Shown: positions 50,522 to 53,915 of the stretch, in pieces
Position numbering within the stretch: the stretch's first letter is position 1
Layout: each line of letters opens with the position of its first letter
DNA from: Crambe crambe
Taxonomy: Eukaryota; Porifera; Demospongiae; Poecilosclerida; Crambeidae
Direction: 5' to 3'
Length of the DNA stretch: 64,000 bases
NCBI GenBank assembly: GCA_963924555.1
Contig: OZ004592.1
Coordinates: 186,001-250,000, forward strand
Program-made: the position numbers and the translations under genes
Notes under the pieces: model-generated
What the model was told of the DNA's origin: nothing
The model's input: the letters and a program-made list of their open reading frames with translations, nothing else
Database searches by the model: none

Positions 50522-51621
50522 TTAAAAAAATAATTCTCTAATCTCATCTGCTAGTGATTTCTCATCAAGTGAAGGTTGCTCCAATGCTGCAATGATTGTA
50601 GCCCAAGTATACTGGGCTGGATTTCTGTTTTTCCAAGTTGATAGTGTCCTTCTGAGTTTTCCTTTTAGATCACCTCTTTCAGCATTGATTTCTTCTATCT
50701 TCTCATTACTGATTTCTAGATTAACTGCAATAATATCCCACTTGTGAGAAATGCGGCACAGGTGATTGAAGAGTGAAGAAAACCTGGGGCGTTGATTCAG
50801 GACATCTATATTTAAAAATTTTATAATAATGATGACCATTAGACATACTTTTACCAGCTACAAAAATTGTTCACTTGACATACTTTCCTGGGGGTGAGAG
50901 TCCTGGAATGAGTATCCTGAGGCTTGAGGTGATGTACTTTCCTGGGGCTGAGAGTCCTGAGATGAGTATCCTGAGGCTTGAGGTGACATACTTTCCTGGG
51001 GCTGAGAGTCCTGGGACGAGTACCCCAAGGCTTGAGGCGACATACTTTCCTGGGGCTGAGAGTCCTGAGATGAGTATCCTGAGGTTTGAGACAAATATGA
51101 AGAGGCTCTGCCAATACTGTTTGAAGGAGATTCCGAGCTGGACCCAGTAGATGATGATGATGAATTTGATTCCTGAGAACTCCGTCTTGCAATGAAAGGA
51201 TGGAGCATTATATTGTAGGTTTTGTCTTCTTTGATTCCTTCAAGTTTTAATGGGAACTTAAGGATTCTGCCAGTTTCATCTCCTTGAGTTATTCTCAATA
51301 TAATTCGTGGAGGATAAAGAGCTATATCTCTGATTGCTCTTTTCTTGTGCTGCTTTGGGTAGTCAACTTCTTCTTTGCGGATCTTAAATTATCATTATTA
51401 TAATTTAGTAAATCATTGTTTAGACACTGCAGACGATAAGACTTACTCTACAAGGGGACACAATTGATGATATTTTATATCCCTGTCTGCTCACAACTCC
51501 TTCTGGTAAAACTAAACTGACACTATTCTCGGCAGAAAAATTAAAAAGTGTTGACTGTATCTCAAAGTTTTCACTTTTATAACGGTTTTCAATGAAACGC
51601 TTTAAATTCTGAAAGATAACA

Positions 51622-51681
<60 letters not shown>

Positions 51682-53375
51682 TATTTATTCATTCACCTTA
51701 CTGTACACCTCATGGTGGATCATTGCACTCACAATCACATGTGACTCCGGAGGGCAAAATGATGACGGATAATACAAGGAAATGCAATACTTCAGTTTTT
51801 TTTGAACTTTTGTATTATAGAATAATAAGTAATTAACGGCATGGTAGCTATTATTAGTCAATCACATACCTTTTGAAGCAAATGCAGCAAAGCAAAAATG
51901 CCTCAAGTCTATTTCTCCACTTGATCGGTTTGCCTCAAATTTAAGTCTTGGAGAGCCATAGATTTTAAAATTCCAAAGGTTGTCATCACTCTCACTGAGT
52001 TCAGGCTTTGTAGGACTGGTAATGAATCTCAATTCACTACAATCATCAAATTCAGCAAAGAGATTGATAGTGAGAGTGACATTCTTATGAAAAGCAAAAG
52101 GAGGTTCAATAAGGTACACAGGACTGGCAAATACAAGATCTCCAGGGAGATAAAAAGGACCTCCAAGACAGGCTTGCAGAGATACATCCACCTCGTCATC
52201 ATCCTTTATAGCTCCAGGTGGGATATGAAGCTTTATTCCTTCACCTTCAACCGTGCCACCATCACTGGTCATCTTCATCTTCGCAGCATTTTTTGAAAAT
52301 GCAACTCCGGGATAGTCAGCCTTGTAGTCACAAGATGCTGCCATAAGTGATTCTAGCCACATAAATAGGAGTACATGAAACAGCTATGCTCTCCCTCCTT
52401 TGATATATATTGTGGATACTTACTCATTGACACAGTGCCAGAGTTGCTTCCTGTTCCAGCATTACTCCACGTACTGATGCCAGAATCATCAGAGATCTTA
52501 TTGGATGACTCAGATGTCTTGTCCACTTCATCAGTAGAGTCAGAGTCAGAAGAATCTGAGGCTCTAGTTCGTCTTCGAGTTTCTTCATCATGACCTGATT
52601 CTGACTCTAAATCAACACTTTCGAGTTCAGATTCAAGTGATGAGTGGTCACCCACTTCTCCAGTTGTGGAATCATCATCATCATCATCATCATCTTTATC
52701 ATCATCAACATGACTCACTCCTATGAAGCCAGGTCGAGGTGTTGTTCTTGAAACTTCATCACCTTCATCAGATTTGTACTGGTCTTTTGATGCCAATCTA
52801 TGTCCAATCTCTACTTCAACAGGAATGTCAGGCCCCATATCTTGAGTCACAAAACTGGAACAAGTTGATCCTGTTGATTCATGAGGTGTGCTTGCATTGA
52901 TGACTTTAAGAATGGAGGGTGCATCTTCATCACTTCGATATTTTCTTACCCTATATGGTTCGGAGTGTGGTTTGAAGCGTGGATTGATATAAGGTGGTCC
53001 AGTAAGCTTGTGACATTCAAAGCAAATTTGCTTTTCAGTTGCTTCACATCTTGCATAAAATGTGTGATCACAAGGAATGCAGATGTATCTACCAATTCCA
53101 AACTCTTTAACTCGATCAAGAGCGTCATATCGTACTTTGCAATTGTTACAACGTGAAACAGGCTTAGTAATAGGAACATAAGTCCACCATGGATGGTTAC
53201 ATGGACCACAAGCAAACTGACGCAGCTCAATGGCACCAGTCAATATATTGAATTTACGCAAAGACTCTTTAGTTAGAAGGTAAGGATTTTTTTCTTCTTT
53301 TAGGAGCCGTTTATGGGAGTCATCATCAAGATAGGTAGCTTTCCATTTTGGCTTCTTCTGATGTAGAGATGCCAT
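50522..53375 (-). CDS. Shiftless-like zinc domain fused to ZU5 and Death domains
   Basis: Six exons join in phase to 829 residues: 52424-53375, 51870-52352, 51697-51806, 51447-51608, 50884-51382, 50522-50805. Residues 50-130 resemble the Shiftless (SHFL/C19orf66, UPF0515) family: four CxxC pairs at about 56-59, 76-79, 99-102 and 118-121, with CNHPWWTYVP, KPVSRCNNCKVRYD and GRYICIPCDHTF. A long acidic Asp/Ser linker follows (about 200-317). Exon 2 is a ZU5 domain (GGTVEGEGIKLHIPPGAI, FASPVYLIEPPFAF). The next two exons look like a UPA-type module. Four 18-residue repeats (GYSSQDSQPQESMSPQA) precede a C-terminal Death domain (WDIIAVNLEISNEKIEEI, LSTWKNRNPAQYTWATII). ZU5-UPA-Death is the layout of UNC5 and PIDD1; the N-terminal zinc domain is new to it. 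Role in immune or stress signalling is inference. Confidence 0.87.
50876..51091 (-). repeat. Coding tandem repeat, 4 x 54 bp
   Basis: Four near-identical 54-bp units encode 18-residue repeats of the pattern GYSSQDSQPQES-MSPQA in the Shiftless-ZU5-Death gene. On the coding strand each unit contains CAGGAAAGTATGTCA or a close variant, that is, a splice donor in the same phase. The donor used in the model (exon end 50884) is the one in the last unit. Confidence 0.9.
51625..51674. repeat. (TTA)n microsatellite in an intron
   Basis: About sixteen TTA/ATT units in the intron 51609-51696 of the Shiftless-ZU5-Death gene. Confidence 0.95.
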
Positions 53376-53574: not shown

Positions 53575-53915
53575 TTACCACATCAAATTCCTCCTTGATA
53601 GATTGCAGTGCTTTCCCCACTCCACTCCACCACTTCTTCCAGTGATAACGAATTGAACTGTCTTGTTTCCCTTCATTTCTGCACTGATTTTGGTCTGAGT
53701 GTCAGCAGCAATAGCTTTTGTATACCCCTTAATCCAATCAATACGACTCTTGTACTTTTCCTTAAGCTTTTCTTGTGGAATATAATGGTGCTGTATAAGA
53801 ATAGTCACACAGGTTTCATGAAAATGAACTCTCTAATACAGCTAGAAGAAAGCTAGTACTGCCCATAGCCTAGGTGGTATTTCTAGCTCGCATATACCTT
53901 TTCAGTCGTGGCCAT
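53575..53915 (-). CDS. Small uncharacterised protein, 77 residues
   Basis: Two exons, 53898-53915 (MATTEK, donor GTATAT) and 53575-53790 (acceptor TTCTTATACAG), join in phase. The product is basic, with KLKEKYKSRIDWIKGYTKA and TKISAEMKGNKTVQFVITG. No signal peptide, membrane segment or known motif is seen. After VEWGK the adjacent frame reads ALQSIKEEFDVV, which looks equally protein-like, so the 3' end may continue through an unseen splice. It lies head-to-head with REC114, 122 bp apart. Not recognised. Confidence 0.45.

Follow-up and report, generated by a model that had tools for sequence, protein, structure and literature searches.

A Shiftless-like zinc domain joined to a ZU5-Death module in the sponge Crambe crambe suggests a receptor for ribosome trouble

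The PIDD1 protein has two ZU5 domains, and the PIDD cleavage site reads HF/S. CARD8 and NLRP1 cut themselves at SF/S, HF/S is the Nup98 motif, and Ser, Thr or Cys can serve as nucleophile in reactions of this kind (PMC3210808). After ribotoxic stress, the linker of human NLRP1 is phosphorylated by ZAKalpha and p38, its N terminus is ubiquitinated and degraded, and the UPA-CARD part nucleates a complex (PMC9623368). For Shiftless (SHFL), an antiviral protein that binds ribosomes, a role as a patrol of frameshifted ribosomes has been put forward (PMC10747187). Here we describe a gene of the sponge Crambe crambe, located in a window of 64,000 nucleotides (the whole stretch of DNA that was analyzed, from contig OZ004592.1), whose product begins with a SHFL core and continues into a ZU5 domain, a UPA-like region and a Death domain. 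The union of Shiftless with a death module resembling those that cleave themselves suggests a receptor by which ribosome trouble, or an attack on Shiftless, would be converted into death signalling. Specifically, the protein may be an animal receptor, presumably cytosolic, that follows the plan of PIDD1 and of the FIIND proteins, NLRP1 and CARD8, with Shiftless as its N-terminal sensor, a proposal that in our judgement is evenly poised.

The gene occupies positions 53375-50522 on the minus strand of the window, the strand on which all other window features given below also lie. Its six exons have GT-AG at all five joins with consistent phases, and the spliced product of 829 amino acids (2490 nt including the stop) has no internal stop, in agreement with the sequence-only reading of this DNA, which had proposed one minus-strand gene with six in-phase exons. 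Exon 1 (52424..53375, 952 nt) encodes the SHFL core and an acidic linker and ends at a GTAAGT donor in phase 1. Exon 2 (51870..52352, 483 nt) is the ZU5 exon and has a phase-1 acceptor, for which there are two options 15 nt apart, 52352 or 52337, both in frame. Exons 3 (51697..51806, 110 nt), 4 (51447..51608, 162 nt) and 5 (50884..51382, 499 nt) encode successive parts of the UPA-like region, with in-phase joins for exons 3 and 4, and exon 5 continues into a Ser/Gln-rich spacer; exon 6 (50522..50805, 284 nt) encodes the Death domain and the stop.

Supporting the assignment of all these parts to one gene were the relatives of its product. When the whole protein was used as query, three proteins were recovered (P0001, P0002 and P0003), each with SHFL and ZU5 above the cut-off, and the relatives are 49-55% identical over the SHFL-ZU5 part, sharing its order and motifs. 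In P0003 a single open frame passes without an intron from SHFL through an acidic linker into ZU5, with nearly as many residues at the border as in the spliced product of the window, which speaks against the two separate genes that the sequence-only reading had named as a refuting outcome; P0001 and P0002 have extra residues at the border that look like an intron read in frame. The idea that adjacent SHFL-like and ZU5-Death genes were merely joined on paper can draw on the exon-1 frame, which stays open for 23 codons into the intron, and on P0004, a protein of 340 amino acids on a contig of 858,636 bases, from a search with the SHFL part, that is the same gene with this frame read on into the intron. 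It is largely refuted by P0003, and is further opposed by the presence of both parts in P0001 and P0002, by exon phases and a phase-1 ZU5 border that match the paralogues, and by the end of the linker just 5' of the SHFL/ZU5 border, which is conserved in relatives; we regard it as scarcely credible. On the sequence evidence, then, the SHFL core, linker, ZU5 and Death domain almost certainly constitute one gene architecture.

The search with the SHFL part only returned 46 proteins. In a tree of 48 rows, the window protein fell in a clade of 28 (100/98) that holds all three ZU5-confirmed relatives. Within this clade P0003 lies in a branch of four rows (96/77) and P0001, P0002 and the window protein lie in another (97/70), and because P0003 and the window protein are in separate branches, both of them below the starred level, the fusion probably dates back to the origin of the clade, though not with certainty. 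The remaining 24 members show the SHFL profile only among their precomputed domains, and their open frames mostly end before the ZU5 start; kinship and the shared linker end suggest that they carry the fusion as well.

Judged by profile, structure search and predicted model, the window protein is a SHFL homologue by descent and fold. The core (52968..53291, residues 29-136, with four CxxC pairs at 56, 76, 99 and 118) had been read as a Shiftless/UPF0515-like domain, with the lack of a SHFL match above threshold named as the result that would speak against it. The match is above threshold, at 65.3 bits versus the curated Pfam cut-off of 29.8; in addition, human SHFL (9kbo) was matched at 1e-11 in a PDB sequence search, the predicted fold of this part is the SHFL fold, and the WW of the first zinc ribbon is present (W63, W64). 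A SHFL C-terminal motif follows (52842..52919, residues 153-178), which is colinear with human SHFL 232-257 and on its own scores only 1.4 bits. Its T171 and S174 correspond to human T250 and T253, known CK1 sites in human SHFL (PMC12724340); Thr is found at position 171 in 47 of 49 rows and Ser or Thr at position 174 in 48 of 49. The protein differs from Shiftless in that the core is here the N-terminal part of a larger protein, followed by ZU5, UPA-like and Death parts, in the basic residues of its ribbon and in having a long linker with a DSGIST motif after the core.

The basic residues of the human SHFL ribbon, as a set, are needed for suppression of Gag-Pol frameshifting and are dispensable for ribosome and RNA binding (PMC11055011). 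Since the first ribbon of the window protein keeps two of the seven human basic positions, with R131 retained, frameshift inhibition should not be assumed. We lean slightly towards a flow from SHFL as input to Death as output, that is, a sensor. The flow would be reversed if the Death domain took the signal and SHFL acted as the effector, stopping translation or frameshifting where infection takes place, which is consistent with the role of SHFL as an effector in vertebrates (PMC10750386), with the wide occurrence in marine invertebrates of Death-like or TRADD-N fusions to antiviral effector parts (PMC8195603), and with a basic Lys at position 121 in 10 of the 28 clade members, some members having 5-6 ribbon Arg/Lys. 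We consider this reversal rather improbable in view of the few positions kept from a set that human SHFL requires, and of a standalone SHFL gene in the same genome (L047, G000 C19) that has nine Arg/Lys in the ribbon and could fill the effector role.

Other SHFL-like sequences showed features of their own. L047 has at 3.9-5.0 kb a second zinc module ending in CPNL; none was seen in the fused protein, and modules of this kind, partial in some cases, occur in 14 standalone relatives. Three near-identical SHFL copies at 2.31-2.35 Mb of G000 C17 (L048-L050) have an in-frame TGA at the second Cys of the first CxxC and a frame change downstream, and are probable pseudogenes. P0048, named in its source as a shiftless homolog of the crinoid Anneissia japonica, resembles the standalone class in having Arg at positions 121 and 131, and sits on a very long branch of the tree.

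The C-terminal end had been read as ZU5-UPA-Death, of which the outer two domains were confirmed by Pfam. ZU5 (52045..52272, residues 345-420; PF00791) scored 22.2 bits, just above the curated cut-off of 21, and Death (50564..50785, residues 743-816; PF00531, E 1.3e-6) scored 28.8 bits versus a cut-off of 22.6 and was also recovered in the genome-wide Death search. Among solved structures, the PIDD Death domain was the best Death match of the C terminus (0.002, PDB by sequence). The UPA part of the claim was not matched by a profile and is left with its position and a three-exon pattern: the exons between ZU5 and Death, in UPA's place, have counterparts in paralogues (for exon 5, of its UPA-like part). 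No extracellular receptor domain was found in the window protein by Pfam, a search in which a transmembrane segment was not looked for. The Ser/Gln-rich spacer before Death contains an in-frame 54-bp tandem repeat (50876..51090, 4.0 copies) with GYSSQDSQPQESMSPQA-like units.

The end of the window ZU5 reads GEIDLRHFCFAAF, in which HFC (51892..51900, residues 469-471) is a candidate self-cleavage site, F470/C471. HFC is also present in P0001, P0002 and 21 of 24 distinct paralogous ZU5 stretches in the genome, these being the stretches whose alignment spans the HFC place and having been found by likeness to the window ZU5, so that the sample leans towards the window. A different use of this module would be as an uncut scaffold, in the manner of UNC5 and the ankyrins. 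It would be closed until binding opens it, HFC would be a set of core residues only, and SHFL would place the scaffold at ribosomes. Such a scaffold would suit the Cys instead of Ser at the site, and UNC5b shares the ZU5-UPA-Death order and has Leu677 where CARD8 has Phe296 (PMC3210808). We consider it unlikely given that His-Phe-Cys is invariant in an alignment of six sequences (A3), five of which share only 23-29% identity with the window, and that the window retains the Phe that is absent in UNC5b and follows it with Cys, an accepted nucleophile (PMC3210808). At a ZU5 copy array on G000 C3:7485116-7825440, LKSL stands in place of the HFC context in L006-L008, the three loci whose alignment reaches it; the three paralogous stretches without HFC belong to this array.

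The linker (52424..52841, residues 179-318) is acidic and rich in Ser/Thr, with 40 Asp/Glu and 37 Ser/Thr among its 140 residues, and is variable among relatives except for one motif. Many of them have it as SEPDSGIGTxSN, and the window protein has DSGIST (52470..52487, residues 297-302). The destruction motif of beta-TrCP is DSGxxS (PMC5954166), and DSGIST is a candidate phosphodegron of this type. Of 49 proteins, 20 contain DSG[ILVMF]x[ST]. Those that lack it include all 14 standalone proteins and several open frames that end before its position; P0012 carries DSARGT at this place. When linkers were shuffled, for those motif-bearing proteins whose linker a script could place, the motif arose in 4-23 of 1000.

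The order of the parts, namely a putative sensor at the ribosome, a conserved degron-like motif, a cleavage-type site and a death-fold C terminus, fits release by degradation. By analogy, the SHFL core would sit on ribosomes or viral RNA via its zinc ribbons and the T250-type site, and ZU5 would cut itself between F470 and C471, the halves staying associated. Ribosome stress, or an attack on the SHFL part, would then cause the linker to be phosphorylated at DSGIST, and the SHFL-linker-ZU5 half would be ubiquitinated and destroyed by the proteasome, upon which the freed UPA-Death half would oligomerize and recruit Death-domain partners, resulting in cell death or NF-kB-type signalling. We view the full cleavage-and-release scheme as possible, a little short of an even call. 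It sharpens the function proposed in the sequence-only reading, in which sensing of RNA or translation is coupled to Death signalling. The SHFL part might instead be an integrated decoy, a bait that has lost much of the frameshift-blocking charge and kept the features of ribosome and RNA contact; a virus protein or a ribosome stall acting on Shiftless would remove the bait half up to the HF/C break and release UPA-Death. We think the decoy improbable. It would be a guard of the frameshifting machinery, and we know of no other such receptor, although no search aimed at it was made.

The proposed sensor-receptor resembles PIDD1 in the order of ZU5, (UPA) and Death, in the His-Phe at the cleavage-type site and in its Death domain, and differs in having SHFL for leucine-rich repeats, Cys for Ser and a single ZU5 that was found. 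With NLRP1 and CARD8 it shares a sensor or disordered N terminus, ZU5, a candidate Phe-nucleophile-type site, a UPA-like region and a death-fold C terminus, and it differs from them in its Death domain for CARD, SHFL sensor and HFC for SFS. UNC5 receptors are alike in the order of ZU5, UPA (here UPA-like) and Death, and differ in the extracellular receptor domain, of which Pfam found none in the window protein, and at the Phe-Cys of the window, where UNC5b has Leu for Phe (PMC3210808).

Several observations weigh against a self-cleaving receptor with a SHFL sensor. A confident predicted model exists for the SHFL part only. Pfam gave no UPA match in the window protein, a genome-wide UPA search gave one sub-threshold match only (E 0.197), and the ZU5-UPA profile was without any PDB match. 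At the candidate site Cys follows Phe, versus Ser in PIDD, CARD8 and NLRP1, and HFC may be structural rather than a cleavage site; three of the 24 paralogous stretches lack HFC, several of the other 21 are near copies, and the P0003 frame departs from the ZU5 sequence before HFC. The last residue of the degron-like motif is Thr in 19 of 20 proteins, the window included, where the classic motif has Ser, and P0002 has DFGIDA in place of the motif. The motif's distribution takes two changes on the tree, since P0030 and P0033, which carry it, fall outside the clade and P0028 and P0034, in between, are without it. The charge loss in the ribbon is partial, with the Lys at 121 in some clade members and R131 kept in the window, and the totals of ribbon Arg/Lys overlap, at 0-6 in the clade versus 4-7 in standalone proteins with a whole ribbon. 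Finally, there is a frame change in the upstream candidate exon at 53790-53579.

That exon is the second of two candidates 5' of the earlier gene model. The first (53898..53915) would encode MATTEK and has an ATG and a GT donor; the second, for the N-terminal SHFL region (53579..53790), has its start and end in different frames (-1), and because of this change ATG 53375 is only the most conservative start. In a small comparison its first part matched the N terminus of the SHFL paralogue L047 (34.5%, 55 columns, E 4e-6), and its -1-frame end is weakly like L049 (KALQSIKEEF/KAIQSIQGEL, E 0.04-0.08). The change lies near 53617-53611, where GGAGT is directly repeated and the heptamer GGGAAAG stands in phase, and may be an indel, an assembly error, chance, or -1 frameshifting, here in a relative of a gene that inhibits this very process. 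Together with the in-frame stop of the three C17 copies, it is what could make this a real gene that has lost its function, a decaying paralogue. We hold that to be very improbable, as all 829 codons from ATG 53375 are open and relatives at 49-55% identity keep the order and motifs. Directly downstream of the gene are minus-strand frames at 49932-48838, which may encode an AIFM3-type Rieske oxidoreductase.

The back end of the protein is common in this compact 143-Mb genome, which has at least 64 ZU5 and at least 150 Death matches. A scan of open frames that lie 5' of the ZU5 exon or contain it covered seven distinct places, listed under eight references since L030 and L057 denote a single one. 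Ankyrin repeats are encoded at five of the seven (L054, L055, L056, L036 and L044), in L056 within one open frame with ZU5. At L057/L030 (G000 C17, about 1.82 Mb), an open frame encodes tandem ubiquitin, with nine matched stretches in L057. A ZU5 exon with HFC lies 3' of it and may be fused to it or be a mere neighbour; a stretch between the two is Death-like by eye. L058 (G000 C21:1580001-1590000, 9998-4565 minus) has immunoglobulin, NACHT and leucine-rich repeat matches by Pfam and a start that is Death-like by eye. Its NACHT-leucine-rich-repeat frame can be spliced cleanly, through GT-AG borders in phase 1, to a ZU5 exon that contains HFC. Next come UPA-like exons and then a frame that is Death-like by eye only, a layout like that of NLRP1 with Death in place of CARD. 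As in the window gene, 23 of 24 paralogues have a phase-1 acceptor candidate where ZU5 begins, according to a lenient scan in which other phases were listed at some of them as well. There was no ZU5 nearby at any of the seven SHFL-like loci examined. From these sequences, SHFL appears to be one of the front ends that shuffling has placed on a widespread back end.

A survey of Death and TRADD-N proteins in marine animals reports many antiviral fusions and links to ZU5/FIIND, its main text being without Shiftless, UPF0515 or C19orf66 (PMC8195603). The sequence-only reading knew of no described protein with the present combination, and none was met, by title and opening of the abstract, among the papers listed from open-licence PMC text, where no paper has both 'Shiftless' and 'ZU5' (subscription papers and preprints were outside the search). 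The ZU5-UPA death-fold kind of receptor is known, and within the literature covered the SHFL sensor is new. Human NLRP1 senses ribosome stress by an indirect route, and here ribosome surveillance and death-fold signalling may share one polypeptide. If the decoy proposal is true, functional degradation of the FIIND type would be present in an early-branching animal, with a Cys-based cut. If the receptor proposal is true, the protein would be a natural receptor with an input domain that can be assayed directly on ribosomes, the link between ribosome surveillance and the death fold would be old, and FIIND-like release would not be a late invention of vertebrate NLRs.
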